Below are positions 2,712-46,615 of a DNA stretch of 64,000 nucleotides, piece by piece. The DNA lies in the NCBI GenBank assembly GCA_028641055.1, contig CM054062.1, forward strand, positions 170,569,715 to 170,633,714. Reading direction: 5' to 3'. A program made the position numbers and the translations under genes. Numbering within the stretch: the stretch's first letter is position 1; the number at the start of each line of letters is the position of its first letter. Source of the DNA: Alopecurus myosuroides (Eukaryota > Streptophyta > Magnoliopsida > Poales > Poaceae). The notes under the pieces are model-generated. The model ran no database searches, had not been told where the DNA came from, and worked only from the letters and a program-made list of their open reading frames with translations.

Positions 2712-3827
2712 TATATCCTAGATTCATAAAGTGGAATTGCACGATGTAACAGGCAGCAGGTTTCAGACGCACTCTTTTCCTGTCCAGGGTACCTAAGGGG
2801 ACTGGAAGGTTTTTAATGAGGCGGCCTGCTGACCTAACTTTTCTCATATCAATAAAGAGATGGTTGAACAATATATTATTTCCTTTGCATGAGTCTTTAT
2901 CACTTTTTATTCCTGTTATGCTTTTTTATCTTTCTTCCAGGTAAGCATTGTCTACTGTTTTTTAGTACATTAGCTTCTTTAGTAGGTTGCGTATATTTAG
3001 GTCTTGGGGGCTGATAGCTTGAATAGCACAGTTACAAACTCAAAGACCCGGCCATGATGCCTATGAGTTATAAGGGCCGATTACTCGCAAACGAGTACGG
3101 CCGCAAGCTTATAACCGGACAAAGGAGCCAAACTTTCTTGACTTTTCTTACTTAAGCTCGATGTGACTCGCACTAAAGTGGCATGATTTGCTCGCATATG
3201 ATCACAATCAGTCATGATGCCCAATGGGACTTGCCTGACCCTGTCTTCGTATAGATGTAGCAACATGAGTATCCACGCGAAAGCCGGCTTACAGTACAAG
3301 AGAGCCAAAAGGGTCATCTAAACCACAAGTTATGCAGAGTATAGGGTTAATAACCGGAAACTCACTGTTTATTAAGCATAACTTCAAAACCTATGCGAAA
3401 CGGCTCTAGGTTTTGGGCTTTGGCAAAGACAATTTGTTCTATTTGAAAGACCTAACACCCTAGACTCGGAAATCCGGGCCTTGGGGACTGGGGATTTTGA
3501 AAAAAGAAACAAATTATCTAGCTATTAAGCTCAAAAACCCAAAAATCCGAGTCTTGGGGACTTAGAGAAAAGTCCACCTATCAAAACCCACGAGACCCGG
3601 AAACCCAGTCTCACAAAAGGAACCTTAAAGTAAGTCGGAATATCAAGAATAAACGAATTCAAAAGAAGATAGACATCAAATTCATTCAAAGGCCAAAAGG
3701 GCCACGAAAGCCATTAAGTTTCAAAATGTATTACAAACCATAATAGTAGTATCAAAGGTGCACAGGCGCACCATCAAAAATAATTGTTTAAAAAGCCCAT
3801 TGGCCGAATGACGTATCTGATGACAGT
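2712..3827 (+). other. Post-pol region of the outer Tat element and 3' flank of its opposite-strand gene
   Basis: No credible coding sequence. The block at about 2755-2835 is repeated, in the opposite orientation, at about 12872-12950 in the nested Tat element, which ties the two together. CCGG/ACCCGG words are frequent. The right end holds the 3' flank of the opposite-strand gene, including a hairpin (GGTGC/GCACC stem, 3757-3772). Bases 3823-3827 (ACAGT) are the target duplication of the chromovirus. Confidence 0.6.
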
Positions 3828-6797
3828 TGTCGCACCCGGCCTTCTAGAGGATACTCGCAGTTCCATTGAACAGTAGTTGATTGGATTACGGGGCTTACCG
3901 GCACCCGCAGCTCTTACGAGTAGGCCAACACACGTATGTGTGACAACCAACCCCTACTGTTCATCGTCTTACGTAAACCATCCCATAGAAATCAGGATAC
4001 TACCATTGACGTACTTCATACCATACACACATGGTACGTCAACGGCGTTTAACAGAATGATAACACAACATATCTCTAGGACACAAAAGATGGAAATAAG
4101 TTGCAAATAGCTCTCACTAGAGCAGAGATAGCAAATACAATCATCCAGAGGACACATGTCCCAACATAACATCATTACATCTCAGCGGAAGCATTCAAAG
4201 GGTCTGAGTACAGACAAATCGAAATAGGCTTAAGAAGCCGGGAATGAAAGGAAAACGGAGCCCATCCACGATGTCTCGGATCCTGCCCGGGTCCGCTAAC
4301 TACTCGTCAACAGTCTCGTCAAACTCCACGTAGTAGCCGTCACGGGGATCCTCGTAAGCGTAGTCTGCGGAAACCACAGCCCCAAAGGGGTCAGTACATA
4401 GACGTACTGGCAAGCAAGACTCACAGTTCACCAAATTGTAACCCGTCAACACCCAGCACCGATGCTTTGGGTTCAACGGAAGAAAAAGGGATATCAAAGA
4501 TGCTGCAACTGGCTGCTCTAACCAACTACAGAGTTACTACCACTTCCGGCTAACAGAAGGGGGATGAGATAGCGTATCGTAACCAACTATAACTAACTCC
4601 AAACAAACCCATCCTGGATCTCTCCCCTTATCCAAAGAAGCAATCCGAGGATAACTCACACAGTTGGATTAATGATGGATCAAGTTATTGTGGCAGTAAA
4701 GCTATTACTAGTCAAGTTATCATTAGTTAGGTGTAAGTTGTTCTGAGTACTTGTTAGCCAGTACTTTCACCAAGTTAACCATAACCGCGGAAAACACGGC
4801 TTCTCGAGAAGATTTATCCCTGCAGGGGTGCACCAATTTAGCCGTACACGTAAGAATAACCCGCCAGATGGAAGGGCCCTTCCACCAAGCGGGGCACTCA
4901 ACACAACTCAACTCTTCTTCGCATCAAGCCCAAAGCACCACGTGGTGTGCGTGCGCGGCTAATCGAGCCCCACGAAGAAAAGGGGACCCTCATAGCACTG
5001 GAAGACCACGCCGCCCTAAATGCCGACTACAAAAGTTCCACCCTGCCCTCGGGTTCGTACCTGCATATGCGTGCATCAAATGGAAAGCCCGAACTAAGTG
5101 TGGTGATTTGGACGAGATGCGAATCGAATCAAATTGAGGGGGGCGCCCATACACGCTTCCCACATGCGGATAATGCGCTCATCATGGATCAGTAGACAAG
5201 ACCCTTTTCCTAATTAGGGTCGACACTAGCAGGCCTCAAAACCACGCCGGGCCTCCTGCCGGTGCCTTATCAGCAATTTATTATTACCTCAAAATTAACA
5301 GGTTGTTGTTTAACATCGAGCCCCAGAACAGTATAGAATATGATAACAGAAAGTAACGGGTAACAGACTCGAGCAAAACAACCCTAAGCATGCTAGTAAG
5401 ACACGGGCAACAAGCCAAGGGTTTTAGGTGTGGAGGTGAGGCAATATCATGGTTAAGGGATAACATGTGATAGGTTCGTAACAGAAACAACTATTCATAG
5501 GGCTAGCAGAAATAGACAACGGAAAGTATCGGTAACCAATGTTGAAAGGAACACACTGGTTCATGTGAGTGATAACTTGCCTGCAAACTCAGCAGCCTGG
5601 TACTGAGCTAGATCCTCAGAAGGGGTGTCGTAAGTATCGTCTGTCTCAACGTCGCCGTCTATCCGAGAAGAAGCAAACAAACAATGCAGAAAGATAAACA
5701 ATCAATAACATGGCATAGTGCACAATCATGGGATGATGCATGTCAATTTAATGGATGCATCAAAATAAACTAGTTGACATGGTAACACAATTTAAATGGA
5801 CCCATTTGCAATTTTGGATTGCATATGAAAAGCCCATGCAATAAGGTTGGAATATTTGTTTTTCAACTAATCAACAGGTGAAAGTGGATTAGTATGATGC
5901 ATGGATGAGGAAAACAGAAAAATAACAACAATAGAATCAATTTAAGATAAGGGTTACCAAGTTTAGGAATTTATTTATTAAATTAAGAAATTTTGGTTCC
6001 TTAAAGGTGTTACACAAGCATTTGTTGTTTTTAGCAATTTAAATTGTTCAAAACAAATAAAAAATTCATATTTGGAAAGAACATCAAATTTTGGGTGGAT
6101 TACATGTTTCAAATATTGAAAAAGGAAATAGGATGAATTTATTATGAACTAAACAAGATTAAACAAGTTTTAAATGAGTTTAAAACAAGTTTGAATATTA
6201 TTTGAATTTTATTTGTTCCAAACATAAATTCAAATTCATATTTGAAAAGTTTATACTTTTCTAGTTTGAAAACATATTTCATAAGTTCAAAAATAATTTA
6301 ATTTGAGCAAGTTATGAATTTAGCAATTTTAAATGGTTTAAATAAGGTTTAAATTATTTAAGCAATTTTAATTATTCAAATCATGAAACAAAATTTATAT
6401 TTGAAAAGAGGGTTCAAAATGGCATGGAAAACATATTTTATTTGCATTATTTGGATTAAGTATGAATTAATTATGCAATTATTCAAATTACCAATGAATT
6501 GTTTGAATTCAAATTTGGAATGCATTTAAAATGTTCAAAACAGATTACAATTGGTTTAAATAGATAGATAATTTAATTTGGTGCAGCAAACATATTTTGT
6601 TTATATTATTTGGAGTTTGGAAATGAAATTTATTAGCAAATTAAGTTTAAGGACCATTCTGTAATTAAAAGGACCTAAACTGAAAAGAAAAGGTTGAAAT
6701 TCTTTTTACACCGCACAGCTATCTACCCCAGGGCACTGCCAACGGGCCCTGGGCCAGCGTGGCACTGCAAAATTGGGGTTTTTCCCTGCGGCGAGGG

Positions 6798-6852
6798 GGA
6801 ATCGAACCCTGGCCCTCGCACTCGCGCGCACTGCACTGCTACCACTGCGCTG
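6798..6852 (-). promoter_or_regulatory. tRNA-like box A / box B pair inside the chromovirus 3' LTR
   Basis: On the - strand, CAGCGCAGTGG (6842-6852) matches the Pol III box A consensus except at its first base. GGTTCGATTCC (6798-6808) is a perfect box B. The gap is tRNA-sized. The T run that follows in the other LTR is shortened to four here by the 52-bp deletion. The acceptor stem does not pair, so this is a tRNA-like relic or SINE head, not a tRNA gene. Confidence 0.5.
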
Positions 6853-7080
6853 CGAATCGTTTCTTATTAGTATAAGGGACGCGAACAGGTTAAGGTTCAG
6901 TTCGCTGCTTAACTGAATTTCTGCGCGCGCGCTTAACTGAACCTTGACAGGGAACGACGCCGGCGGCGAGCTGCCGTGGTTGCTGTCGTGCTTGGTGCGC
7001 GTGGATGTGCTGCGGTGGGCGAGGTGGTGCATGTGCTCGTGCCAGAGAGGAAGGAGGAGAAGGATACGGTGATCACCTCC

Positions 7081-7534
7081 TGTCGTGGGATAATCACGGC
7101 AGATGTTACCGGGGGTAACTGATCTAGGGGCAAGTCGACACAGGTATTTGGGAGAGGGTTTAGCTCGAAGGAAGACATGGCGAAAAGCAATCTAAGAGCC
7201 GGAAAACAACTCGCCGGATCTCGATATGATTATACTGGATACTCGATAATAGGTGTTACAGTTATGACTTGAATCTCTCTCAGGCGAAGCCTAGGGGTTG
7301 GTTTATATAGTACTCATACCCCCTTTGGCTCGCCATACAAAGCGCTCCTTGAGTCCTACTCGAACTCTACATACGTATCCTAGCTTTCCTTATCGTAACC
7401 CACAATCCGGGTTACGATCCTTACAAGCCCTGGGCCTTCCAGAAGCTTCTGCGTCCTTAGCCGGATTTGGTCCATACGCCGTTTGGGCCGGATTACACCT
7501 GGGGTTGGCATACCGAGTTACTATCCCCTCATCA
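7081..7534 (-). repeat. 3' LTR of the non-autonomous Tat element
   Basis: On the + strand it starts TGTCGTGGGATAATC and ends CCCCTCATCA. It appears identical to 15542-15995. It is homologous, in reverse orientation, to the 489-bp LTR at 36803-37291. Confidence 0.95.
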
Positions 7535-8685
7535 GTAGTCCCCAGAATAGCTTGGGCTTCCAAGATTTACTCTTCGAAGCGCTGGCTATTCCCTACAGAA
7601 ATATCAGATGCAAACACGCAGCGCGTCTATGAATAGCCGAGACTGGCGCCAAGGAAGCCAGGTAAAAACCCGGCTCTTCTTTTTAGGTTCTTCCTTAATC
7701 TCTCAAACTTAAATCTCAACAGGAAACTCCCTGACTCCACATCCTTCTTGATAACTACCGCTGATACAGGGAAGGCAATTTCCCCTTCCTTTTTCTCTGG
7801 ATCATATTGGCCTGCGCATAAAATGTGCCTTTCAAATTTCGAAATCACCAATTACTCCGCATTCCCCGGGTCTCGACCGTTAGGCCAAGCCTTTCCACCC
7901 GGACGGTTATAAATAAAGACCAATGAGCAAATCCAACTCTTAACGGCTCATTTCCCCCATTCCACTTCTTCCCAAGCTCGAGCTCGCAGAGTGCCACCAC
8001 GGGAACCCCACGCATCTCGCCGGAGCCCATCCGACTTCGTTTGCGCTCCGCCACCGCACGAACCGCTCCAGCTCCCGAATCCGCCGCCAAGCCTCCGATT
8101 CGCCGGCCAACGGTCACGAAAGGGCACGAATCTTGCGCTATCTGTCTCCGCAAGGCCTTACTCCAATCCTCTTCGGTAAGTTCCTTACACCCTCCAGCTT
8201 ATTCTCGCAATTTCTTAGTTCTTCCTCAGATTGGATCTGAATCGAGCGGTCCGCGATTTCTCGGGCTGCGCCAAATTAACTCACCGATTTCCACTATAAT
8301 CACTCCCATAGATAGGATTTATAGCTTGTATTGCTCCCCTAACTCCAGTAATCACTAATTTGGTCACAAATTTAGAAATAAGATCCCCAATCTAGGCTCG
8401 GGCCATCTAGAGTTTCCGCCTTTGCTCTCCCTCCTCAGAAAATCTTACTTCTCCGGCTCATTCGCAGATAGTATGCGTATAAGTATCCCCCTAGCTTCTC
8501 CAAACATTTGCTTTTGCGGAAAGCTCTTTGGGTTTTGTAAAGTCACTTGATACCCGGACGAACCATACTTAACCCGGCGAGGCAATAGCCGGATTACGTT
8601 TAAATTGCCGATAGCTACTTACCTGCTAACTTCCAAGTTTTTGTTTCTTACGTCCTTTTCTTCAATGTTTCACCAGGTCAATCCC
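7535..8685 (+). other. Promoter, 5' UTR exon and 5' UTR intron of the opposite-strand gene
   Basis: No coding ORF belongs here. The stretch next to the LTR is the purine-tract side of the element. A TATA box lies at 7908. A CT-rich leader exon (about 7938-8175) ends in the donor TTCG|GTAAGTTCC. The acceptor TTTCACCAG is at 8668-8676, nine bases before the start codon. The older copy has the matching pair (donor ACACCG|GTAAGTTTC near 36141, acceptor CTTTTGCAG before 35657), so the 5' UTR intron is ancestral. The exact transcription start is inferred. Confidence 0.6.
7908..7915 (+). promoter_or_regulatory. TATA box of the opposite-strand gene
   Basis: TATAAATA lies about 30 bases before a CT-rich leader and about 260 bases before a conserved 5' UTR splice donor. 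The older gene copy has a TATATATA at the equivalent place (36412-36419, - strand). Confidence 0.6.
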
Positions 8686-11600
8686 ATGGCGCCCAAGAGG
8701 CAGGGGAAACAGCCGGCTAAGGCTAAATCCACAAACGCCATTTCAGCCAACTGGGGGAAGTCCTCCATCACCAAGACCAAACTGGAGGAATTGGTAGAGC
8801 TTGGAATCCTACCTCCACAGGAATCCATCCGCTGGAGAGCACCTGGCAACGAAACCCGGCCTTCTCCAGCCACGGATGAGGTAATATGCTTCGTTGAACA
8901 CGTGACCCGGGGCTTCAGGCCTCCGGGTCATCCCTTCTTCCGTGACGTCTTAGACCACTACAAACTCCGTATCTTTGATATAGGCCCGAACTCCATTTTA
9001 AACATCTCCCATTTTATCGTTCTTTCCGAGTCTTACTTGTGCACTCCGCCAAGTCTGGCTCTTTTTGTCGAACTTTTCCAGTGCAAGCCGTGTCGCGAAA
9101 GCGGCGACGGCGCACTTCTTACTTGCGGCGGGGTTTCTATCCAGCGCCGCAAGAACTCCCTTATGCCTCCCATTTCTCTCAATTCTCACGTAAAACACTG
9201 GCAGCTTTCTTACTTCTACTGCCAGGATACCTCTCCACCCGGCGAAAAAAAGTTGCCGGGTTACTCGGAGGGTCAACTTGACATCTCCGAGAAATTCAAC
9301 GCCTTCGCCCCTGACTCAGACAGGGAGGCGATCTTGCCTTTGTTAGCTAGGATCTCCATCTTGTCCGCCCGAGGCCTCATCGGACTAAACCTGGTGAAGA
9401 CCTGGGTTAGCTTCCGCATTCAGCCAAACTCCCTTCGTGAGAAGCTGATGTGCGAATACTCGGGTCAAACCACGGACCCAATCCGCTTCTCTACCAGCAC
9501 CCTTGCTCCGGGTGACATCAACAAAACGATTAAGGGTTTCCTGACAGAGAAACTCGAGGTAATCCGGGGCATAGCCGGATTAGAACCTTTTACCCTCGAG
9601 AATCCAGCCCCCGCAGTAAGTTCCCTGCCTTTTGATTTTGACTTCTGACAGCTTACTTTTATCCGCTTCTCTTGTCTTGATATTAACCATTACTCTGGCA
9701 TTCTCTCCTCAGGCCGATGACGCCTTCTGGAAGGTCGACACCTCTCCTAGTTCCGAAGACGCGGAGGAGGAAGACGATGTCATTGACTCGAATGAAGGTA
9801 CACACTTGATTCCCTTGCACACGTTATATCCTGCCACTTCTTCTTCTTTATGCGGGAACTCGGATATTTTTCAGAGCGAGAGGACCAAAGCGAAGAAGAA
9901 GAAACAGACAGTAGGGGCGGGTCCACCAGCGAGGAGGAAGAGCCGGAGCCGGCCACCAAAGCCGGAACAAAGAGGAAATCCCAGAGGATAGCCCTCCAGG
10001 TTTTTACTTCATCTCCTCACACTTTGGTTTTCTGTTTCCATAACGTCACTCCGGGGCTAACCCCATCTCCACCCCTTTTGATCGTAACTGAAGGAGCCGC
10101 CCGCGACTAGGCGCCGAGTAACCCGGAATCATCCGGGCAACGAGACCCCTAACCCGGTCGCTTCGCCGCCCCCGGTTCAACACCCTGGTATTTGTTGTAA
10201 ACAAAATTTCTTTCCGATCGTTCCTTTGTAACATAATCCCAGGTCTTTCTTGCCATTTTCCAGTCTCTTCCGGGTCTAGTGACGGCTTTCCCTCGGACTT
10301 CCCGGTGAACACCGGGTAAGCGCCTTTTCCTGATATTACACCGAACTTTCATCCTTTTTTTTTTTTTAAAATCAAAGACTAATTGCGCCCTTGCGCCTTC
10401 TTCAGAGCCACGGTTATTAGTAGCGACCAGGAGGACTCCGGGGCTAGGGTCCGGGTCGAGAGCGAGCCGGCTGATGATGCCTTCACCACGACTGGCGACG
10501 AGCAAGTGTCGCCACCGGAGCCAGCTAGGCATGACGCCGAGTATCCAACTGCTTCGCACGCAAGCGAGAAGGAGAAGGGAGCAGCTTCAAGCGCGGGAGG
10601 GGGACCAGACTCCGACATTCGGATGACCCGGGTGCCACCTCCTGTTACAAGAAATGCTCCTTTTCCCACTTTCCAGGTACCCGAGCCATCTAACCCGGAT
10701 AACGCTGACTTTAACCAGCTTATGAGCGCTCTTCTCGCCATGAAAGCTTCAGAAGGGACTGTCTTAGAACGTATGGCTGCAGCACATCAGGTAACTTTCA
10801 CGTGATACTCCTTATTATACGTCCAGTCCCCAAGTCCCGAGTATAATTTTCTTTAATTATCCTCGGTACTTCGCATAGTACTTTCCGGTACTCATTTCCT
10901 CAGATGAAACACTCTCATGATATCCGGCTCACAGCTTTACCCGGCCTTTGCAGGCAGAGATTACTCAGTCAGATGAAGCGTTACTTAAAGCTGAGCAGCT
11001 CTTGCTGGCTGAAGTTAAGCGTAGGGAGGCCCTTGAAGCGGAGATAAAGACATTGAAAAAAGATGTCTCCATTTACAAGAAGAAGTACAATACTGCCCAG
11101 TCTTCGCTGAATAACCTGTCGACTCAGCTTACGGACACTTACCGTATCTTGCTAAGTAAGTTTGCTATTTGCGATTAATTTGCGTATCTCTATCTTGCTG
11201 CTGTAATAACCAACATTACTGATATGCTCTTGCATGTTTCGATTGCAGGTGCTAACCTTGCTGCTCCGGAGGAGAATGCCATTACTCAAGTTAAAACTCT
11301 GAAGACTATGCTCCGGACGTTTTTTGCCGGCACGAAACTTTTGCTGGATGCTATCAAGTGGCCTTCTGAGGTATACCCGGGAGAAGATAATCTTATGCAG
11401 GCCTTCTCAACGGTGCCTGGATGGATTGAGATAATGAAGCGCTCAGCTTGCCGGATTGGAATGACCCGGGCCCTTACACTGGCGAAGGCTTATTTTCCTA
11501 AGCTTGACCCGGCCAAGGTAACATCCGGGTTTCCAGAATTCAAAGCTGACGGGTCCAAGTTTGAGCCCAAGGACTTCAAAGATATTCAACGTGCTGTACG

Positions 11601-11916
11601 CCCCTCAGCCACTACCTTGGCCGACAAAATGGAGCTGGACCAGATCATGAGTTCATATGACGCTGAGGGCAAAGTTATTTTGGTGGATGCACCTCCTCCT
11701 TTTGATATGGTGGAAAGATGGTCGACTGACCTGGCCAGGAGGAAAGAAGAGGCCGCAAAGAGAGAAGCAGAGCTAGGCGCAAAGCCGTCCACCTCTACAC
11801 CGGCCGTGCCTCCGCCTGTCCGTCCAGATGTGAAGAGCCCGAGCAAAACTGCTGGCAAGGCCAAGGAGCAAGTCCAAGATCTAGACCCGGAGGGCCGCTC
11901 TCAGGATGCCGAGTAG
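8686..11916 (+). CDS. Spliced 846-residue protein gene antisense to gag-pol in a Tat retrotransposon (putative-gypsy-type-transposon family)
   Basis: Eight coding exons with GT-AG introns and matching phases: 8686-9615, 9713-9797, 9875-9999, 10094-10187, 10264-10315, 10406-10790, 10954-11155 and 11249-11916 (TAG). No internal stop. Residues about 63-181 (for example CFVEHVTRGFRPPGHPFF, SHFIVLSESYL, FQCKPCRESGDGALL) resemble the grass 'putative gypsy type transposon' family (PF04195, from memory). Residues 311-557 are acidic and Ser/Pro-rich with KRK-type basic patches; about 540-625 form a long coiled coil; a mixed C-terminal part ends in QDAE. Basic runs at the N-terminus (MAPKRQGKQ) and in exon 4 (TKRKSQR) suggest nuclear location. 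The start is the first ATG after the 5' UTR intron and is conserved in the second copy. Antisense extra genes are reported for related elements (for example maize Grande). Function unknown. Confidence 0.85.
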
Positions 11917-12960
11917 GATGCTACCTTGTGCTTTTCGTTTCTCGATACTGATATGATTTTTGTAGTGCGCCTGTGCGCCATTGATGCTGATACTATGACT
12001 GTATGCTTTGTTAATTCATGATAACTCTTTGCCTTCCCTGGCTTTTGATAATATCCATCCTTGTGTTACTTATGAGCTTATTCTCGATACTTCGAACTCT
12101 TGCTTTCAATTTCCTTTTGAGACTCGGTTAACCGAGTATCGTAGGTTTTGATAGATGGACTTTTCTTTAAGTCCCCAATACTCGGCAACTAAGGTTTACA
12201 GACCTTGGTAGTTAAATAGTTTGTTTCTGTTTCGAAGTCCCCAGTCCCCATGACCCAAAGTACGAGCTATGGGGGCGTGGGCTTTCTCAGATGACATACT
12301 GCTGTTTACCAAGCTGAAGACCAATAGCTGTTCTCATAAATACTGAAGTCATGCTTAATATTTGTTGAGTTTCCGGCTATGTTAGCCTTATACTCTGCAT
12401 GGACTTGTGGTTTAGATGACCCTTTTGATTACCTTGTACTATAAGCCGGCTTTCGCGTGGATACCATGTCGTTGCATCTATACGAAAAACAAAATCAAGC
12501 ACGCTCCATTGGGCTGCATAGTTTGATTGTAATCGTAAGTGAACAGATCATGCCACTTTGGTGCGAGTCACATCGAGCTTAAGTAAGAATAATCAAGAAA
12601 ATTGGCTCCTTCGTCCAGTTATAGGATTGTAGCCGCACCCGTTTGTACGAGTAACCAGCCCCCATAACTTATAGGCATCATGGCCGGGTCTCCGGGTTTG
12701 TGATTACTTATTGAAGTAGATCAACCCTCCGGAGACCTATATTCACGTAATGTATTTCGATGATATTGATGTATTGATAATAACAATGTTACTTACTTGT
12801 AACTGAAGCAAGGATCATGATAAGACTCGAAACCATCTTCTTTTATTGATAAAAATTTCTTATTTGAATCAGCAGGCCGCCTCATTAAAAACCTTCCAGT
12901 CCCCTTAGGTACCCTGGATAGGAAAAGAGTGCGTATGAAACCTGCCGCCCATTACACTGC
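11917..12960 (+). other. 3' flank of the opposite-strand gene and residual post-pol sequence
   Basis: Non-coding. It includes a hairpin-forming block (11964-11979, GCGC/GCGC around CTGT) shared with the older gene copy. At 12872-12950 there is a stretch matching the post-pol block of the outer element (2755-2835) in reverse. The two transcription units, gag-pol on the - strand and this gene on the + strand, converge here. Confidence 0.55.
11964..11979 (+). other. Conserved hairpin downstream of the opposite-strand gene
   Basis: GTGCGCCTGTGCGCC can form a short stem around CTGT. The older copy has GGTGC...GCACC at 3757-3772 at the matching distance from its stop codon. Possibly part of the 3' UTR or 3'-end formation; role inferred only. 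Confidence 0.35.
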
Positions 12961-12961
12961 T

Positions 12962-15639
12962 TTAGTTATTCTCTAGAATCGGCCTCGCGTTGGTACGGCC
13001 GATACACATTCTCCACTTGCTATACCCTTTCGTAATGAGTACCGGATTTGCTAGCCATTCCGGGTATATCGCCCTTGACACGTGATCAGCTGCGGATGGT
13101 GGTACGTCTTCTTCTTCCCTACTGAGAGTTTTGAAAATATCGTTCCCGATGAAGCCTACCATCTTAGGGTTTTGTTCTGCCCTAACTTTTGCTTTGTCCC
13201 CCTCAGGAGTTGGCTTTTTTGACGTTGCTCTCTCTTCTAGGTCCACCTGAGAACGGTAATGTTTGAGCTCTTCCTTCCTACAGGCTTGCTCGGCCATTGC
13301 CGCGTCTCCTTCATCACACTCAGCTGCTATATCTCGGTTTCCGTGTACGGTGATGGTCTTTTTAGGACCCGGGATCTTCAGCTGTAGGTACACATAACAT
13401 GGTCTTGCCATGAACTTGGCATAAGCCGGCCTTCCAAACAATGCATGATAAGGGCTGCGCAACTTTACTACCTCAAAGGTAAGCCACTCGATTCGATAAT
13501 TGTCCTTTGACTCCCCGAAAGCTACCTCCAATGCCACTTTTCCTTCGGGGCATGCCGAATGACCCGGCACTATCCCGTGAAAAACTGTTGTACTTTTTTG
13601 CAACTGTGATTCCTTTAAGCCCATGCGCAGAAAAGTTTCCCAGTATAGGATATTGATACTACTCCCTCCATCCATCAAGACTTTCTTCAGCTCGTAACCA
13701 TTGACCTGTGGCGCCACTACCAAAGCCAGGACTCCCGGGTGATCAATCCTATCCGGGTGATCTCTTCTGCTCCATGTTACCTCTTGCTCTGACCACCTCA
13801 AATATCTTGGAACGGCGGAGGAGACTGAATTAACTGCTTGTTTCAGTATCTTCTTGTCCTTGCTAGAACCTCCAGTAGTGTGCACATGATACTGACCCAG
13901 CTGTTTGGGGTTAGCTTGAAATCCTCCCGCTCCCCCTTGATTGTTACCTTGATTTCCAACTGGCGGATTGCCGGCTGGGGGCGGCCCGTTGCCCGAATTT
14001 CCACCTAGACCCGGACCTCCTCCTCGGCCCGCACCTCGCATGGCCCTGTTCACTTCCTCGTTCTTCCACCTTTGTAAGTCGGCACACTGCTCCAATGAAT
14101 GATTGGCCGGCTTGCCATTCCTGCTATGCTTCGGGCACGCCATCCTAAATATGTCCCAACTGTTGCTTGGTCTTGGGGGTACTTGGTAGTGTCCCCCATT
14201 GTGATTTCCGGTATTAAAATTCCCTTCGGATCTAGGTCTCGAAGACCCGGCCTCTGTATTGGCCACAAACTCGGAACTCCCCTCAAACGGGCGCTTGTTC
14301 TGGCTATTTCCATTGTTGTTTGGTGCCGATCCATTGCCGGTCTTCCCACTGCTACTTGCGTTTGCTTTTGCCTTCTTGTCATCAACTTCCTCTTCTGTAG
14401 TATCCGTTGCAGCGTGTTTGTTGCATGCATCCATTAACTCTCCCATCGTAACCTCCGCTGCATTTCTGCTGGATTTCATGCGGGTTAGCTTTTATACTAA
14501 AGGAACATACTTACATGTTTTCGCCATAGCTTGTAGTGCGTCCTTTGGTTGGATATCTGTAGATGAGTGGAGTATCTCCATAACCCGGCGTACCCAGCTT
14601 CGTGCTGACTCTCCTTTCTTCTGGACGCACCTTTCTAAGTCATCAATAGTAAATAACTTCCTACAGGTCCCATGGAAGTGCTTGATAAATGCGGTTTTTA
14701 GCTCCTCCCACGACTTGATCGACTTTTCCGGTAAATTGGTGAACCATAACTTTGCTGCTCCAATGCATGACGAGCCACGTCCAGATCTCTTACACGCTCT
14801 GCTGCGTTTTCTGGGGTGATAACTGTAGCTAGGACTGTGGGATCCAAGATCAAATTATTATCAAACAGAGCTGGGTGACGCGGATTCGAGGGGCCCGCCC
14901 CCGGTGTCCGGTTTGCTTGGAACCCAAACATATTTGCGTGTCGCTCCTCCTCCGCTGGGCGACTGGTGACTGATGCCGATTCTCCATCGACCTGGGCCAA
15001 GATCGGGCCAGCCGTACCTTGTTGCTGAGCCAGCACCTGCGCCGCCCCGACTGGCGCCGCGGCTGCGTTTCCTTGATTGGTATTGATTGCGGGGGCCGCA
15101 TAAACTGCAACCCGGCGCATAATGCTTGGCGTAGATTCGTACCGTTCTTCCTCTTCGCTATTTTCCTTCTCGTATCGGTCCTCCGATAAATCCCGTATAG
15201 ACTCGGCACCTTCCTCCCTCTCTGTCGGACCCGTTGTTCCGATCGATTCTTCTTTTTCCGATTGAACACGCGTGTCCTCCCCTGACACAGAATCAGATTC
15301 AAGATTATCACGGCTTGAATTGGAAGCACATACCATACCGATGAAGACGTTGATGCGGCCGACTGTCACGACGGATCCGGTTTCGAGGTGATCCGACTCT
15401 GGCCCCCAGCCAGAATCGTCTACCATCTTCTCTCCTTGGTTGTTGACGTAGATTTCTCCGACGACGAGGTTCCTCATGTTCTTCCGAGCTTCTCCCGTGA
15501 TGTAAACACCTTTGGACGCAGGCCCCACGGTGGGCGCCAACTGTCGTGGGATAATCACGGCAGATGTTACCGGGGGTAACTGATCTAGGGGCAAGTCGAC
15601 ACAGGTATTTGGGAGAGGGTTTAGCTCGAAGGAAGACAT
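12962..15639 (-). pseudogene. gag: Broken gag-protease of the non-autonomous Tat element
   Basis: Reading right to left, the frame starts at ATG 15639 inside the LTR (MSSFELNPLPNT...), passes through the PBS and continues to about 14770. There an internal deletion joins ARHA to the middle of gag (KLWFTNLPEKSI) out of frame. A stop (TAA, 14492-14494) precedes the next open stretch (14479-12962). That stretch has a Gln/Gly/Asn-rich linker, an aspartic protease (MDGGSSINIL, the Tat-style active site) and the RT-entry motif KWRMC at 13004-13018. Immediately after KWRMC the frame enters post-pol sequence and ends at 12962. So gag and protease are damaged, and RT, RNase H and integrase are missing. 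A conserved LTR-encoded start (compare 37194) supports 15639 over the upstream in-frame ATG at 15651. Confidence 0.88.
15521..15539 (-). promoter_or_regulatory. Primer-binding site of the non-autonomous Tat element
   Basis: TGGCGCCCACCGTGGGGCC on the - strand, two bases inside the 5' LTR border. It is translated as part of the gag frame. Confidence 0.85.
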
Positions 15640-15995
15640 GGCGAAAAGCAATCTAAGAGCCGGAAAACAACTCGCCGGATCTCGATATGATTATACTGGA
15701 TACTCGATAATAGGTGTTACAGTTATGACTTGAATCTCTCTCAGGCGAAGCCTAGGGGTTGGTTTATATAGTACTCATACCCCCTTTGGCTCGCCATACA
15801 AAGCGCTCCTTGAGTCCTACTCGAACTCTACATACGTATCCTAGCTTTCCTTATCGTAACCCACAATCCGGGTTACGATCCTTACAAGCCCTGGGCCTTC
15901 CAGAAGCTTCTGCGTCCTTAGCCGGATTTGGTCCATACGCCGTTTGGGCCGGATTACACCTGGGGTTGGCATACCGAGTTACTATCCCCTCATCA
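15542..15995 (-). repeat. 5' LTR of the non-autonomous Tat element
   Basis: 454 bp, apparently identical to 7081-7534. It contains the first 32 codons of gag (from ATG 15639). CCTCC follows at 15996-16000 as the target duplication. Confidence 0.95.
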
Positions 15996-17126
15996 CCTCC
16001 CGTGTAGTCGAGCAGAGGCTCGGGGAAGCAACTCCGGCGGCGACGTGGAAGATGGCGGCGACGTTGTGGTGGATGTCAAGCACAGCGGCGGTGTCGATGA
16101 TGTCGAGGAAGGTGAGGGGGACTCGTTCCCGTGGTCAGCGTGGACGGAGGAGGGCTGCAGCGACGGCAGCGTCCATGGATTCAGAGGCGGAGCTCCGGTG
16201 AGGTGGTTGCAGAGAGGGAGAAGGAGGTGGCAGAGAGGTGGAGGCGACGGCGCAGCTCGAGAGGGAGGAGGGCGGTAGGGTTAGGGCAGCGCAGGGGCCT
16301 AGGGGTAGGTCTTATAGGAGCTACAGGGCGCTGCTGGCCGTCGGAGCGCAACGGCGTCGACGTGGCGCCGCGGATCTGCTGCCGTACTGCGGGAAGAAAG
16401 AGAGAGAGGGGGCGAACCGGTATCGGGCCAGGGAAAAGGTAAGGGGTGGGCTCGGCTCGCGGGGGTACAGCCCACTGCCTCTCTCCCCCTCGTTTTCCTT
16501 TTAAAATTTCTGTTTTCTTTTTTTTTTTGCTGAAAAGTAATAGGAAGAAAAAGATGAGATTTTGGGCTAGGAAAAATCTAGAAAAAATTTGGGTGAGTTA
16601 GTTATTACAATAGCAACTAAATGCCAACTTTGTTTTCCAAAAGTTTCAATTTTAAATTGTTGTTTGTGATTTAACTCAAATTTGAAAGAATTTGCTTATT
16701 AAATGATTATTATTGAAAACAAACTTTTTAATAGGGTGAACCCTATTGTTTAATTAGAACAAATGATTAGAGTTGTTTTGGTAATTTCCATAATTTGAAA
16801 TTGGGTGCTGTTTGTGGTTTGATTTGAATTTTGAATAACATTGGAAATAATTGATTGATTAAAAGCCACCATTTTTAAATAGTTGAACCTTATGGATTGA
16901 AATGGAACAAATAAGGTTTTGATTTGAACTTTTTATTTGAAAAGATTGTAACATGACAAGTCTGAAACAAAGGTTGAATATTGTTTGAATTTCCATTATG
17001 AGAACAAATAAAAACAGATGCAAACAAATAGGAAACAAATGCAATGAGTATGATGCCATGATGCAAAAACAATAATTAAACAAAAACAAACATGCTAGGG
17101 TGGTTTTTCATACTTGGGATGTTACA

Positions 17127-17140
17127 AAACGCCCCCCTTG
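17127..17140 (-). promoter_or_regulatory. Polypurine tract of the chromovirus
   Basis: On the - strand AAGGGGGGCGTTT directly abuts the LTR start TGTAACATCC. This is the usual plus-strand priming site position. Confidence 0.75.
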
Positions 17141-23105: not shown

Positions 23106-23117
23106 GCTCTGATACCA
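23106..23117 (-). promoter_or_regulatory. Primer-binding site of the chromovirus
   Basis: TGGTATCAGAGC on the - strand, two bases from the LTR end. It is complementary to the 3' end of initiator tRNA-Met. Confidence 0.92.
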
Positions 23118-26074
23118 TCTGTCGCACCCGGACTTCTAGAGGATACTCGCAGTTCCGTTGAACAGTAGTTGATTGGATTACGGGGCTTACCGGCACCCGC
23201 ATCTCTTACGAGTAGGCCAACACACGTATGTGTGACAACCAACCCCTACTGTTCATCGTCTTACGTAAACCATCCCATAGAAATCAGGATACTACCATTG
23301 ACGTACTTCATACCATACACACATGGTACGTCAACGACGTTTAACAGAATGATAACACAACATATCTCTAGGACACAAAAGATGGAAATAAGTTGCAAAT
23401 AGCTCTCACTAGAGCAGAGATAGCAAATACAATCATCCAGAGGACACATGTCCCAACATAACATCATTACATCTCAGCGGAAGCATTCAAAGGGTCTGAG
23501 TACAGACAAATCCAAATAGGCTTAAGAAGCCGGGAATGAAAGGAAAACGGAGCCCATCCACGATGTCTCGGATCCTGCCCGGGTCCGCTAACTACTCGTC
23601 AGCAGCCTCGTCAAACTCCACGTTGTAGCCGTCACGGGGATCCTCGTAAGCGTAGTCTGCGGAAACCACAGCCCCAAAGGGGTCAGTACATAGACGTACT
23701 AGCAAGAAAGACTCACAGTTCACCAAAGTGTAACCCGTCAACACCCAGCACAGATGCTTTGGGTTCAACGGAAGAAAAAGGGATATAAAAGATGCTGCAA
23801 CTGGTTGCTCTAACCAATTACAGAGTTACTACCACTTCCGGCTAACAGAAGGGTGATGAGATAGCGTATCGTAACCAACTATAACTAACTCCAAACAAAC
23901 CCATCCTGGATCTCGCCCCTTATCCAAAGAAGCAATCGAAGGATAACTCACACAGTTGGATTAATGATGGATCAAGTTATTGTGGCAGTAAAGCTATTAC
24001 TAGTCAAGTTATCATTAGTTAGGTGTAAGTTGTTCTGAGTACTTGTTAGCCAGTACTTTCACCAAGTTAACCATAACCGCGGAAAACACGGCTTCTCGAG
24101 AAGATTTATCCCTGCAGGGGTGCACCAATTTAGCCGTACACGTAAGAATAACCCGCCAGATGGAAGGGCCCTTCCACCAAGCGTGGCACTCAACACAACT
24201 CAACTCTTCTTCGCATCAAGCCCAAAGCACCACGTGCTGTGCGTGCGCGGCTAATCGAGCCCCACGAAGAAAAGGGGACCCTCATAGCACTGGAAGACCA
24301 CGCCGCCCTAAATGCCGACTACAAAAGTTCCACCCTGGCCTCGGGTTCGTACCTGCATATGCGTGCATCAAATGGAAAGCCCGAACTAAGTGTGGTGATT
24401 TGGACGAGATACGAATCGAATCAAATTGAGGGGGCGCCCATACACGCTTCCCACATGCGGATAGTGCGCTCATCATGGATCAGTAGACAAGACCCTTTTC
24501 CTAATTAGGGTCGACACTAGCAGGCCTCAAAACCACGCCGGGCCTCCTGCCGGTGCCTTATCAGCAATTTAATATTACCTCAAAATTAACAGGTTGTTGT
24601 TTAACATTGAGCCCTAGAACAGTATAGAATATGATAACAGAAAGTAACGGGTAACAGACTCGAGCAAAACAACCCTAAGCATGCTAGTAAGACACGGGCA
24701 ACAAGCCAAGGGTTTTAGGTGTGGAGGTGAGGCAATATCATGGTTAAGGGATAACATGTGATAGGTTCATAACAGAAACAACTATTCATAGGGCTAGCAG
24801 AAATAGACAACGGAAAGTATCGGTAACCAATGTTGAAAGGAACACACTGGTTCATGTGAGTGATAACTTGCGTGCAAACTCAGCATCCTGGTACTGAGCT
24901 AGATCCTCAGAAGGGGTGTCGTAAGTATCGTCTGTCTCAACGTCGTCGTCTATCCGAGAAGAAGCAAACAAACAATGTAGAAAGATAAACAATCAATAAC
25001 ATGGCATAGTGCACAATCATGGGATGATGCATGTCAATTTAATGGATGCATCAAAATAAACTAGTTGACATGGTAACACAATTTAAATGGACCCATTTGC
25101 AATTTTGGATTGCATATGAAAAGCCCATGCAATAAGGTTGGAATATTTGTTTTTCAACTAATCAACAGGTGAAAGTGGATTAGTATGATGCATGGATGAG
25201 GAAAACAGAAAAATAACAACAATAGAATCAATTTAAGATAAGGGTTACCAAGTTTAGGAATTTATTTATTAAATTAAGAAATTTTGGTTCCTTAAAGGTG
25301 TTACACAAGCATTTGTTGTTTTCAGCAATTTAAATTGTTCAAAACAAATAACAAAATTCATATTTGGAAAGAACATCAAATTTTGGGTGGATTACATGTT
25401 TCAAATATTGAAAAAGGAAATAGGATGAATTTATTATGAACTAAACAAGATTAAACAAGTTTTAAATGAGTTTAAAACAAGTTTGAATATTATTTGAATT
25501 TTATTTGTTCCAAACATAAATTCAAATTCATATTTGAAAAGTTTATACTTTTCTAGTTTGAAAACATATTTCATAAGTTCAAAAATAATTTAATTTGAGC
25601 AAGTTATGAATTTAGCAATTTTAAATGATTTAAACAAGGTTTAAATTATTTAAGAAATTTTAATTATTCAAATCATGAAACAAAATTTATATTTGAAAAG
25701 AGGGTTCAAAATGGCATGGAAAACATATTTTATTTGCATTATTTGGATTAAGTATGAATTAATTATGCAATTATTCAAATTACCAATGAATTGTTTGAAT
25801 TCAAATTTGGAATGCATTTAAAATATTCAAAACAGATTACAATTGGTTTAAATAGATAGATAATTTAATTTGGTGCAGCAAACATATTTTGTTTATATTA
25901 TTTGCAGTTTGGAAATGAAAGTTATTAGCAAATTAAGTTTAAGGACCATTCTATAATTAAAAGGACCTAAACTGAAAAGAAAAGGTTGAAATTCTTTTTA
26001 CACCGCACAGTTATCTACCCCAGGGCACTGCCAACGGGCCCTGGGCCAGCGTGGCACTGCGGGCGCACACAGCA

Positions 26075-26101
26075 GCTGACAGGGGGGGCCACCCTGTCAG
26101 C
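26075..26101. repeat. 10-bp perfect inverted repeat, deleted in the partner LTR
   Basis: GCTGACAGGG and CCCTGTCAGC with a 7-base loop. The 52 bp containing it (26061-26112) are absent from the 3' LTR. Confidence 0.8.
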
Positions 26102-26110
26102 GCACCGTGT

Positions 26111-26196
26111 AAAAAATTGCGGTTTTTCCCTGCGGCGAGGGGGAATCGAACCCTGGCCCTCGCACTCGCGCGCACTGCACTGCTACCACTGCGCTG
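26111..26196 (-). promoter_or_regulatory. tRNA-like Pol III cassette in the LTR: box A, box B and T6
   Basis: Reading the - strand: CAGCGCAGTGG (26186-26196, box A with one mismatch), GGTTCGATTCC (26142-26152, perfect box B), then TTTTTT (26111-26116), the usual Pol III terminator. The predicted transcript is about 90-100 nt. Acceptor pairing is absent, so it is not a functional tRNA. Confidence 0.5.
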
Positions 26197-27560
26197 CGAA
26201 TCGTTTCTTATCAGTATAAGGGACGCGAACAGGTTAAGGTTTAGTTCGCTGCTTAACTGAATTTCTGCGCGCGCGCTTAACTGAACCTTGACAGGGAACG
26301 ACGTCGGCGGCGAGCTGCCGTGGTTGCTGCCGTGCTTGGTGCGCGTGGATGTGCTGCGGTGGGCGAGGTGGTGCATGTGCTCGTGCCAGAGAGGAAGGAG
26401 GAGAAGGATACGGTGATCACCTCCCGTGTAGTCGAGCAGAGGCTCGGGGAAGCAACTCCGGCGGCGACGTGGAAGATGGCGGCGATGTTGTGGTGGATGT
26501 CAAGCACAGCGGTGGTGTCGATGATGTCGAGGAAGGTGAGGGGGACTCGTTCCCGTGGTCAGCATGGACGAAGGAGGGCTGCAGCGACGGCGGCGTCCAT
26601 GGATTCAGAGGCGGAGCTCCGGTGAGGTGGTTGCAGAGAGGGAGAAGGAGGTGGCAGAGAGGTGGAGGCGACGGCGCAGCTCGAGAGGGAGGAGGGCGGT
26701 AGGGTTAGGGCAGCGCAGGGGCCTAGGGGTAGGTCTTATAGGCGCTACAGGGCGCTGCTGGCCGTCGGAGCGCAACGGCGTCGACGTGGCGCCGCGGATC
26801 TGCTGCCGTACTGCGGGAAGAAAGAGAGAGAGGGGGCGAACCGGTATCGGGCCAGGGAAAAGGTAAGGGGTGGGCTGGGCTCGCGGGGGCACAGCCCACT
26901 GCCTCTCTCCCCCTCGTTTTCCTTTTAAAATTTCTGTTTTTTTTTTGCTGAAAAGTAATAGGAAGAATAAGATGAGATTTTGGGCTAGGAAAAATCTAGA
27001 AAAAATTTGGGTGAGTTAGTTATTACAATAGCAACTAAATGCCAACTTTGTTTTCCAAAAGTTTCAATTTTAAATTGCTGTTTGTGATTTAACTCAAATT
27101 TGAAAGAATTTGCTTATTAAATGATTATTATTGAAAACAAACTTTTTAATAGGGTGAACCCTATTGTTTAATTAGAACAAATGATTAGAGTTGTTTTTGT
27201 AATTTCCATAATTTGAAATTGGGTGCTGTTTGTGGTTTGATTTGAATTTTCAATAAAATTGGAAATAATTGATTGATTAAAAGCCACCATTTTTAAATAG
27301 TTGAACCTTATGGATTGAAATGGAACAAATAAGGTTTTGGTTTGAACTTTTTATTTGAAAAGATTGTAACATGACAAGTCTGAAACAAAGGTTGAATATT
27401 GTTTGAATTTCCATTATGAGAACAAATAAAAACAGATGCAAACAAATAGGAAACAAATGCAATGAGTATGATGCCATGATGCAAAACAATAATTAAACAA
27501 AAACAAACATGCTAGGGTGGTTTTTCATACTTGGGATGTTACAACAGTGGATAGCAAATA

Positions 27561-30500
27561 TCACTCGGCATCTTGGGCTGAGGCATCCATCTTCTCCTTG
27601 CCCTTGCCAGCCGGGTCCTGTCCCTTGACTTGCTCTTCAGCACTCTTGGTAGCAGCAGTACCCGGATCAGCAGTAGTGTCGGCCCGTGCGGGAGGAGGGA
27701 CGATTGGCGTGGAGGTAGCAGGCGCAGAATCGGCCTCAGCCTTCTTCTTCGCGGACTCCTCTCTCAACTGGGCAGCCTCCGCCTTCCATCGGGCCAGCAT
27801 GTCGTATGGCTGGGGAAGATCCGACTTGATAGCCTTGTCATCAGAATCATATACTGGGATTATGACACTAAGGTCCAAACCATCGGCAATCATGCTGGCT
27901 GGGTGACGGACTTCCTTCTAGATGGCCTTGAAATTCTTCACGGAGAACTTGGACCCGTCGTGGTTAAACTCGGGAAACCCGCCTATAAGCTTGGCTGGCT
28001 CGAGTTTGGGAAGATACGCCTTAGCCAGCGCAAGACCCCGGGTTACCCCAACCCGGCAGGACGATCGTTTCCAGTGCCTAATCCACTCGGGGACGGTGGA
28101 GCAAGCATCCAGCAGCATCTTCAGGTTGCCATGCCCGGAACCCGGCCACCTCAGCTCCTGAAGGATCCATTTGGTTCCGGCGCACAGCTGCCGGATAGTG
28201 CTCTTGATGGTCTTCAACTTGGCAATGTCATCTTCGTCCGGGATTACTTCATCCGGACCTGCAGAAAGTAGCAAAAAACAACGAGTAAGGAAATCCGACT
28301 ATTTATCAGAATGAGAATCCGGATCATAATTATCGAGTTAGAAATCGTACCAGCCAAAGCACGATACGTATCGGCAATTTGAACAGAAAGCTTTGTCAGC
28401 TCATCTTCTGCTGCATGAGCCCTCCTCCTATACTTCCTCGTGATCTTCCCACTCCTCCTAGCTTCAGCTTCAGCCGACTCACGCAGAGCCGCCTCCTTCT
28501 CAACGAGCTTGGTGGCCTTCGCCAATTTTTTCTTGGATTGGGTCACGAACGCCTGAGTGGAGACACAAGGAAGGATTAGTCGGATATACTACGAAGTCCC
28601 AAGCAAATTATCAATAAATTCACTCGGAACTTGGGGACTAGATAAGGATACAGGCAATATTATTCGGATTTACCTCATGTTTAGCTATCAAAGCTTCTAA
28701 GATATTTTCTTCATCGGCCCTCAAGGTATGCAGGGCATCAAGCATCTGGGAGAACGTCATGTCTTCGGGCCTGACGCCAGAAGAGCCGGCAGCTTGATCG
28801 CCTGGCGGGTGAACTTTCCCCGACTTTGGGGTCGAGACCCAGACTGTCTGAGTGTCCGGGTTTGGAGAACCCGTCTTTGTTTCCAGGATCTCAACCTCCT
28901 CGTCCTCAGCCTCTTCAGATGGCTTCGGAGACCCGGCTTCCTGGCGAGCCGGGTCACCCAAGGGGCCTTGTTCCTGGTTATCTTTAACATCATCGCCAGT
29001 CGCGGCGTCCATATCATCAGTCGGCCCCTCCGTCTCCCGGTTATCTGTCTCCATGTTCTCCGGGTCACTAAGTGTGACTTGGGCGCTAAGGAAAAAAGAG
29101 AGAAATAGTTAATGACAATGGATGAAAATTATCAAGTATACAAGGATATCATATAACAAAGACTCACCCGGTGTTCACAGCGTAATCTGGTGGGAGCTCG
29201 CTGCTGGAAGCGGATGAAGCTGTCACGGGAACCGATAGCAGAACCCGGAACTGCCCGGCCAGTGGATGGTTGGGGGAGGGGTGACGTTGAGGAGAGTTGG
29301 AAGGGTGAGGTGGAGGAGTACCGGCACGGTGGACTGGTGAGGTCGTCACCCGGGGAACTCCGGGTCACCCTGCGCTTGGCCGGAAGAGATTCCTTCAAGT
29401 GTGATGAGTTGGATAGTTGTTGGTTAATTTTGTGCATGTGTAGCATACCAACTTTTAATAAAGATGGAATACCTGTGTTATTGTGCTAGTCCCTGGATCA
29501 ATTGCTAGCACCACAGTACAAAATGAAATATCATGCAAATGCATCAAATTCTATTACATCGCATGATCCAGTCTTTACAAAATAGGATTACAACTTGCAT
29601 AGTCTTAGAAGACTAGCAGAAAAGAAAGAAATACAGCGGAAAACATAGAACAACATTGAGCCCATCTTCTTCATGTGCCACAGGAAAAACATGTTGGCGA
29701 TAGTCTCGAGATCCTAAACGAAATCCTCACTCGTCTTCAGAAATATCTGCAATATGGAATATGCAGCCACAAGGGAGTCAATACAATTTAATGTATTGGC
29801 AAGTAACACTATGGTGGATATAAATGGCAAGACTAATACTACATGCTTATTTGGCTGAGTGGAGTTTTGGCTAAGTTTGCATAAAGCTAGTTTTCTCCTA
29901 TCACTTTTCTAAAACAAACTTTTCTTTTCAAAAGGGTGGCAACATTGGAATAAGATCCAAGCACCACAATACTGTTCACTTGGTCAAAATTTTACTTATT
30001 GAAAATGGTGATGTGATTCTTCCGTCCTTCCTTGTCCAGCTGCTCATAGTTGTCCATAATGGGGGACACGGCTAAGATCTTAGTTTGTTGACTCTGCAGA
30101 GTGTGTGCACTTTCACCTTCAGACTCAGATCAGCCCAAACATCCTATACACCCTGAGTGCATTAAGGAAAGGAGAAGATTGAGACGAGATCTTTCAGAAG
30201 AAATTCCACCACCGTTTGGCTTACCCGTGCCACCTATAATTATGCTACATCTGCTGGTAAGCCTAGTGAGTTCATTCAACTTAATTGATCAAGACAGAGC
30301 CCATATGACTAAAGGCTGCACGGGAAGCTACTAGATTTAGAGGGACATAGTAATCTCTTTGTTCCTGGGTGGCCATCCGCAAGTGACAACCTCAAGTGGA
30401 ATAACCCTTAGAAAAGGGCCCTGAGGCAACACTCAACATAAACCAGTCTTACCACTTCCACCCAGGTGGTTCATTCATTAGTTATACTTAGAATTTTTCC

Positions 30501-35657: not shown

Positions 35658-36802
35658 TGGTTCAGTCTGCAAAAGCACAAGACAAAAGGACACAGAGCAT
35701 AAGACTCGGAAATCATGGATTCTCCGAGTATCGATAAACAATATGAGAATTACGAATTATCCGGGTATCGAGTATCAGTACAAAAACTATGGGGTACTTA
35801 CGTATTGGCAAGCATTTGTGGAAGAAGGTTGATTGCCCATGTATCTAGTGCAGGTAAAAGAACCGGAAGAAGTGGATTTTCCGGGTATCAATGACAGCCG
35901 CGGAAAATTTGGGCGAAATGAATCTAGATTAAAAAATTTGCGGACGATTCTGCGGAGAAATTGATGATTAACAGTGATAGGGGAGTGATGTGTGACCATC
36001 TATCAAGCTATTGGACGAGCTAGCGTGGAACTATGCGACCTAATCCGGTGCGGAACAAGAAACGGCTCGCGGCGGACCAAGATCCAATCTAGGTCAAATA
36101 ATGCAAACAAAAGCTAAATTAGTGGGAGTAAGAAACTTACCGGTGTGGATTGGAGAAGGATGCGACAGCGGCAAATGGCGCAGTCGCGGTGCCCCGGTGT
36201 GATTCCCGGCGGGCGGCTTGGAGACGCGGCGGCGGAGTTTGGCGGCGGCGCGGGTTGAGCCGTGGATGAGTGCGGACGGCGGCGGCCTTGCTCCGGCGAC
36301 GTGCGCGAGATCTCCGTGGTGGTGCTCTGAGTGCTCGAGCGGGGATGCGCTGGTGAGGAGGAAGAGAACGGAAGCAATGGACCGTTAGGGTTAGGTTACC
36401 CCCTAGGTGCCTATATATAGGTGCGGGTGGGGAAACCTAGGCCAACGGGCAGGAACCTAAATTTTCGGGATAAGTGATACCCGTCCGAGATTTTGGGGAT
36501 ATGCGTTAAGTGCCCGAGAGCGATATCCGGACAAGATAAGAAGGAAATCTTTCCGCGATATCAGGGTTAATTATCAAGTGAAGTAAGCCGGATCTTTGAC
36601 ATTCTCATCGAGGCATTGACCGGGAAAAGTAAACAATGGACTTAGAGAAAGCCGGGTTACTATATGGCCACCATGGAGTTAGGCCTGGCTGTTTATCAAA
36701 GCAATCTAACCCGGCCTCTATGAACTTGGTTTGTTATTTTTGCAGGGAATAGCGTGCGCTTCAAGGAGGATCCCGTGAAGCCCAAGCTATTGTGGGGACT
36801 AC
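35658..36802 (-). other. 5' UTR intron, leader exon and promoter of the older opposite-strand gene copy
   Basis: The acceptor CTTTTGCAG lies just upstream of ATG 35657. The donor ACACCG|GTAAGTTTC is near 36141, preceded by a GC-rich leader exon (about 36142-36385). A TATA box is at 36412-36419. The remaining sequence to the LTR (36803) is non-coding. This layout parallels 7535-8685. Confidence 0.6.
36412..36419 (-). promoter_or_regulatory. TATA box of the older opposite-strand gene copy
   Basis: TATATATA lies about 30 bases upstream of a CT-rich leader, at the position equivalent to 7908 in the intact copy. Confidence 0.55.
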
Positions 36803-37291
36803 TGATGGGGGGATGATAACCCGGTAGGCTAACGCCAAGGAGTAACTCGGCCCAAAGGACGCTGCGCAAGACCCGGCTTAAGATAAAGGAGCTTCTAGAA
36901 GGCCCAGAAGCATAAGCCTAGTAACCCGGATTGTGGGTTCCGGCATGGAAGTTTAGGGTTTTGTAAGCAGTGTCCGGGTAGGATTCAGGGTGCGCCTTGG
37001 AGAGTAAGCCAGGGGGTCCGGATATGATATAAGCCGTCCCCCTAGGCTAGGGTTAAACAAGCTTTTACGTGAGCAAGAATACGATCGCCAGATCGAGAGA
37101 TTTCGAGTATCCATTGTAACACCAGTATCGAGTTAATATATTTAGATCATAGACTCGGCGACTTGATTGCCGGCTACCAGATCGCATATCACCATGGTTT
37201 CCTTTGAGCTAAAACCTCTCCCAAACACTCGCGTCGATTTTCCCCAAGACAAGTTACCCCCGGTAACGTCTGCCGTGATTATCCCACGACA
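36803..37291 (+). repeat. 3' LTR of the outer Tat element
   Basis: Starts TGATGGGGGGATGATAACC and ends CCGTGATTATCCCACGACA. It aligns with the reverse complement of the 454-bp LTRs at 7081 and 15542. It carries ATG 37194 and 32 in-frame codons (MVSFELKPLPNT...IIPRQ) matching the LTR-encoded gag start of the nested element. Confidence 0.9.
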
Positions 37292-42627: not shown

Positions 42628-42637
42628 GAAAAGAGCT

Positions 42638-46610: not shown

Positions 46611-46615
46611 ACTTG

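Follow-up and report, generated by a model that had tools for sequence, protein, structure and literature searches.

The 64,000-nucleotide stretch of the Alopecurus myosuroides genome analyzed here (GenBank assembly GCA_028641055.1, contig CM054062.1, positions 170,569,715 to 170,633,714; hereafter the window) contains two much diverged long terminal repeat (LTR) retrotransposons, designated elements A and B, which carry the same multi-exon gene in antisense orientation. Element B is oriented on the minus strand and is bounded by mutually identical LTRs of 454 bp (3' LTR at 7081-7534 and 5' LTR at 15542-15995, both on the minus strand) and by a CCTCC target-site duplication (7076-7080, second copy at 15996-16000). 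Its antisense gene, on the plus strand, is probably an intact accessory gene of the Retand type (Tat group, Ty3/gypsy) and is the main subject of the present analysis.

Exact re-translation of the eight coding exons of the element B gene (2541 nt) yields 846 codons and a stop, without internal stops. Exon 1 (8686-9615, 930 nt) contains the TRP28/PF04195 region. It is followed by exon 2 (9713-9797, 85 nt), by exon 3 (9875-9999, 125 nt) and exon 4 (10094-10187), which hold the first and second halves of a putative bipartite nuclear signal, by exon 5 (10264-10315), exon 6 (10406-10790, 385 nt), exon 7 (10954-11155, 202 nt), where a crude heptad score indicates a possible coiled coil, and exon 8 (11249-11916, 668 nt), which encodes a conserved C-terminal region and ends with a TAG stop. 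All seven coding introns are of the GT-AG type and join the exons in compatible phases. Upstream of the coding region, a motif scan located a TATA box (TATAAA, 7908-7913, plus strand); no other TATAWA occurs between the end of the LTR and the ATG, a single match in such a stretch not being rare by itself. An intron of the 5' untranslated region (UTR), GTAAGT...CAG, occupies positions 8176-8676 of the plus strand and its acceptor lies 9 nt upstream of the ATG.

Freely chosen GT-AG introns can jump over stop codons and a chance control was therefore needed. The longest GT-AG-joined open reading frame (ORF) with no more than seven introns of 70-300 nt was computed on 8601-12100 and on 24 dinucleotide shuffles of this region. 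When no splice site was allowed to be poorer than the weakest one observed, the joined ORF measured 2562 nt; the shuffles reached 1056 nt at most (mean 665 nt), and the opposite strand gave 981 nt at best. Laxer splice sites gave 2676 nt (shuffle maximum 1911 nt) and the removal of all splice thresholds 2688 nt (shuffle maximum 2001 nt). The optimum of the control is 21 nt longer than the eight-exon chain, so that the control backs a long spliced ORF and not each individual junction.

The orthologous gene of element A provides an independent view of this architecture. Element A lies in the opposite orientation to element B and is split by a nested chromovirus into two parts, from position 1 to about 3.8 kb and from 27.5 to 37.3 kb. 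From TATA to stop, its decayed antisense gene extends over 27561-36419 of the minus strand and includes an insert of about 5 kb in intron 3 (29392-34352). Exon lengths are identical in A and B for exon 1 (930 nt), exon 2 (85 nt) and exon 7 (202 nt); they amount to 122 and 125 nt for exon 3, 412 and 385 nt for exon 6, and 698 and 668 nt for exon 8, so that all six are equal modulo 3. Every unambiguous junction of the element A gene carries GT and AG. A TATA-like TATATA is found at 36419 (minus strand), 279 nt before the donor of the 5' UTR intron compared with 268 nt in element B, and in both elements this intron has the donor GTAAGTT and an acceptor 9 nt ahead of the ATG. The case for the exon structure is made by the conservation of exon lengths, phases and frame, and not by any failure of the introns to align.

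The exons might instead be separate antisense ORFs that are never joined by splicing. Separate antisense ORFs are indeed what the Retand survey discussed below reports (PMC11963269), and the PF04195 domain lies wholly within exon 1. Against this stand the exact lengths of exons 2 and 7 and the phases of exons 3, 6 and 8, all kept in element A. In addition, the wheat gene model P0001 reads NPAPAANDQFWK, passing from NPAPA straight into ANDQFWK, which is the exon 1-2 junction of element B, P0001 being possibly a pure prediction devoid of RNA support. The ORFs P0007, P0009 and P0013 run past the end of exon 1 as NPAPA-VS, as expected of an ORF caller reading into the GT donor, while P0006 (NPAPPVRTS) and P0010 (NRAPQVPYF) deviate at this point. 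We regard unspliced, separate ORFs as highly improbable.

The two gene copies could also be compared for selective constraint. Over 830 codons, the Nei-Gojobori method (NG86) gave a nonsynonymous rate (dN) of 0.375 and a synonymous rate (dS) of 2.48, the latter near saturation and from a single element pair, for a dN/dS ratio of 0.15. In exon 1, the proportions of nonsynonymous and synonymous differences are 0.144 and 0.718 (dN/dS 0.067), and the differences among its 309 codons fall at codon positions 1, 2 and 3 in the numbers 56, 38 and 165. The ratio is 0.29 in exon 2, 0.23 in exon 4 and 0.19 in exon 8. With dS near saturation, these ratios reveal strong constraint in exon 1 and, in the other exons, weaker or unclear constraint. 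They indicate that the antisense gene is under purifying selection, strongest in exon 1. The initial annotation of this locus had proposed the eight exons at exactly these coordinates, with GT-AG introns, compatible phases and 846 codons, preceded by a TATA box and a 5' UTR intron. Re-translation, the chance control and the matching structure of element A, TATA and 5' UTR intron included, bear it out, and the dN/dS between element copies, which it had named as a check, is well below 1.

These comparisons also inform a reading in which the antisense transcript itself would be functional, through double-stranded RNA (dsRNA) or transcriptional interference, and the protein incidental. The transcript would be convergent with the genomic RNA, a dsRNA role has been deemed possible for such transcripts (PMC7264820), and noncoding stretches of the element are conserved between A and B as well. 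However, the concentration of exon 1 differences at third codon positions, with a dN/dS of only 0.067, and the maintenance of frame and phases across exons argue against a role for the RNA only, which we consider improbable.

The predicted product points to a family already known from transposable elements. Residues 67-134 match the PF04195/TRP28 profile with an E-value of 1.6e-21 and 76.7 bits, compared with a Pfam curated cutoff of 26.2, and exon 1 of element A reaches 77.8 bits; the resemblance of the first exon to PF04195 noted in the initial annotation is thus well founded. A search with the whole product, scoring the 7994 candidates that shared most words with it, returned five protein matches, and exon 1 returned ten. 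Among these 15, 13 carry PF04195 alone, P0004 carries PF04195 with other domains and P0013 is unlabelled. Crude motif and heptad scans agree with the earlier suggestion of a nuclear, coiled-coil product: a putative bipartite nuclear signal, KRK-x12-RRR, spans the exon 3/4 junction at residues 371-388, and the heptad score peaks at residues 582-630. The equivalent position in element A reads KRK-x12-KRR, both basic clusters being conserved. From these features we infer a nuclear localisation and a coiled coil for the 846-residue protein. The structure predicted for exon 1 is of fair quality (pLDDT, the predicted local distance difference test, 78.6; pTM, the predicted template modelling score, 0.80). 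This fold covers about 290 residues (8686-9615), while the Pfam model spans just 69 positions.

Several points weigh against an intact, constrained gene encoding a nuclear protein. Besides the saturation of dS and the single pair compared, exon 6 has a dN/dS of 0.45, exons 3, 5 and 7 give no finite value, and all these values cover the time since the split of A and B rather than the time since the loss of pol in B. The element A gene has decayed and contains stops at codons 23 and 733. Its splice sites were placed by visual inspection of motifs; the exon 4/5 junction of this gene is ambiguous, the pair that keeps the frame having been selected, although both exons are present. Between A and B, the nucleotide sequences of exons 3, 6 and 7 show no more conservation than those of the introns. 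In element B itself, exon 4 is preceded by a poor acceptor, GTAACTGAAG. Searches of PDB and BFVD with the predicted exon 1 fold found no match and so lend no support to DNA binding, and exon 8 yielded neither a database homologue nor a usable structure model. Pattern scans with six exon 1 peptides found 7 stretches in IMG/VR and 38 in GTDB, none a confirmed relative, a result of little weight in viral and prokaryotic collections.

The element that carries this gene is itself incomplete, a feature overlooked in the initial annotation. In sense orientation, element B retains two ORFs on the minus strand: one of 317 residues (14698-15651), presumed to be a gag remnant, and one of 505 residues (12962-14479) with a presumed gag end, a protease-like part and a part resembling the start of reverse transcriptase (RT), followed by the region after pol. 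A Pfam search of both ORFs returned nothing, and the gag, protease, RT-start and primer-binding-site labels used here are presumptive, being based on motif resemblance. The presumed gag is broken across frames; its frame starts at an ATG within the 5' LTR (15639) and crosses the presumed primer-binding site. A stretch of the element A LTR (36803-37291), also led by an ATG, resembles this presumed gag opening (15639-15400, minus strand). RT, RNase H and integrase were not detected in element B by tblastn with the pol ORFs of element A (best E-value 0.14), and the intact gag and pol that define an autonomous element are lacking. We judge that element B is a derivative that has recently moved and, lacking RT, RNase H and integrase, is non-autonomous. 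Between the pol remnant and the antisense gene, a noncoding stretch (11953-12956) shares about 72% identity with element A (2745-3784); a conserved noncoding word of 33 bases had no exact match in IMG/VR, a viral collection in which this carries little weight. The distance from the pol remnant to the 3' LTR is 5427 bp.

Antisense ORFs in Retand-type elements have been cited since the late 1990s and occur in large numbers in several plant genomes (PMC7264820; PMC11963269). A survey of recently active Retand clusters from flowering plants reports antisense TRP28 ORFs in all but 2 of 63 clusters (97%), reports no similarity of TRP28 beyond transposable elements, notes non-autonomous clusters and proposes a regulatory role for these ORFs (Vicient 2025, PMC11963269). 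Like the element B gene, they are antisense, contain PF04195 and lie between pol and the 3' LTR. Element B shows the features of the group, namely LTRs, a target duplication, the pol to 3' LTR length and an antisense TRP28 ORF between pol and the 3' LTR. Its 454-bp LTR and its pol to 3' LTR region of about 5.4 kb fall within the published ranges, the latter range (2.9-6.6 kb) not being exclusive to Retand, and the LTR length is that of A. myosuroides clusters 7i and 7j (PMC11963269). The placement of element B is made by PF04195, position and orientation, B having no RT and the RT of A being cut by the start of the window. As the survey was built on RT domains, an RT-less element such as B could not appear in it (PMC11963269). 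It published TRP28 as ORFs from ORF Finder; the words 'intron' and 'splicing' are absent from its main text and 'spliced' occurs in its references only.

This lineage-wide distribution bears on the origin of the gene. The initial annotation had described a host-style RNA polymerase II gene carried as cargo; a multi-exon, polymerase II-type antisense gene is supported, whereas cargo is not, antisense PF04195 ORFs being found throughout Retand (PMC11963269). A captured host gene would account for the host-like anatomy, with its TATA box, 5' UTR intron and GT-AG introns, and the capture could be ancient and predate the spread of the lineage. Against it, the same gene is present in element A, and antisense TRP28 is reported from almost every recently active Retand cluster of flowering plants, with no similarity described outside transposable elements (PMC11963269). 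By label, 14 of the 15 protein matches are PF04195 and one is unlabelled, a tally of labels and not of the genomic context of the matches. A host-cargo origin is unlikely, and strongly so.

The explanation that we favour as probable is that of a Retand-type accessory gene. The antisense gene would be transcribed by RNA polymerase II from its internal TATA promoter, and its mRNA would be spliced and translated into a protein of 846 residues. The introns would survive because the RNA that is retrotransposed is read off the opposite strand, where their splice sites do not exist; this argument, already put forward in the initial annotation, fits since the introns occupy matching positions in the two diverged elements. 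The protein would enter the nucleus via its KRK-x12-RRR signal and regulate the element, most likely at the level of chromatin or transcription, through its TRP28 domain, coiled coil and C-terminal region, and element B must have borrowed RT and integrase from relatives. The product is most likely a nuclear regulator of the element; roles in targeting, packaging or silencing escape, raised in the initial annotation, are conjectural. The eight-exon architecture, shared with a second element, is new here, as is the presence of the intact gene in an element devoid of RT, RNase H and integrase.

Retrotransposition reporter cassettes exploit the same strand asymmetry, an antisense intron being placed so that only one of two transcripts is spliced; these cassettes are artificial and the intron is lost upon retrotransposition, the reverse of the element B gene. 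Natural antisense genes of human T-cell leukemia viruses (HTLV) have fewer exons than the latter. Like the gene proposed here, HTLV-1 hbz and HTLV-2 APH-2 are spliced antisense genes of LTR retroelements with a nuclear regulatory product, and they provide a precedent; the HTLV antisense promoter resides in the 3' LTR whereas that of element B would be internal, and HBZ is a protein of another type, a basic leucine zipper (PMC10186651). Closer at hand, gene23 of maize Grande (Gomez-Orte 2013) is antisense, downstream of pol, has its own upstream promoter and encodes a nuclear product, according to a 2020 review (PMC7264820). It shares the antisense position with the element B gene, whose TATA box and putative nuclear signal are known from sequence alone. 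The same review allows for a dsRNA role and recommends the study of antisense and spliced transcripts (PMC7264820). By title and abstract, the literature searched (several lists giving the best 8-25 of hundreds or thousands, the original Grande paper being outside the scope) held no description of multi-exon TRP28 genes.

The retention of an intact gene in an element deprived of pol can be viewed in two ways. The gene may be a passive passenger that a recent deletion of pol has left too little time to decay. The LTRs of element B are identical, a single deletion could account for the missing pol domains, and the A versus B selection figures describe the time since the two elements split and not that since the pol deletion. 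Against a passenger, Table 1 of the survey contains 15 clusters lacking at least one gag-pol domain (our own count from the table, the text giving ten) and TRP28 is present in 15/15, once as a short ORF, while the 2 clusters without TRP28 possess all four listed gag-pol domains (PMC11963269). On the other hand, these clusters are defined by identical LTRs and recent passengers would look alike. We find the passenger quite plausible, if somewhat short of probable.

Alternatively, and with less confidence, the antisense gene might license movement copy by copy, its transcription or protein acting preferentially on the copy from which it comes, for instance through opening of that copy's chromatin. 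Such a licence would account for the intact gene in defective elements that rely on gag and pol supplied in trans, and the retention of TRP28 in 15/15 defective clusters hints at a role not suppliable in trans, in a survey that required RT and is silent on selection (PMC11963269). If this tentative reading were true, the antisense ORFs reported separately (TRP28, 'Smc', 'TolA' and others) would often be exons of one spliced gene. Since element B keeps the gene although it has no RT, RNase H or integrase, a role in cis can be put to the test. Returning to the accessory gene as a whole, if its product is one spliced protein of 846 residues, ORF-based surveys described fragments of it, and expression and functional testing of the complete protein become feasible. 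Persistence on the antisense strand across rounds of RNA-mediated copying would make these eight coding exons a remarkable example, found in nature, of introns surviving within a retroelement.

Further features of the window deserve mention. Element B is nested within an LTR of the chromovirus (pieces at 3816-7080 and 15992-17127), whose partner LTR lies at 23108-27544 and in which a chromodomain is present. A polypurine-like word, TGGGGACT, adjoins the 3' LTR of element B and occurs five times on the genomic-RNA strand, compared with about 0.16 expected from base composition. It is found at 7537, 10825, 12170, 12236 and 12243 in B and at 28632, 36793, 3482 and 3555 in A, and in both elements one copy sits within intron 6 of the antisense gene; these repeats are possible extra plus-strand primers. 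Elsewhere, a direct duplication of 5.8 kb (42195-47984 and 48001-53792) shows 98.7% identity with 16 bases between the copies, and two more direct repeat pairs, of 93% and 97% identity, are located at 53604-56648 and 60855-64000.

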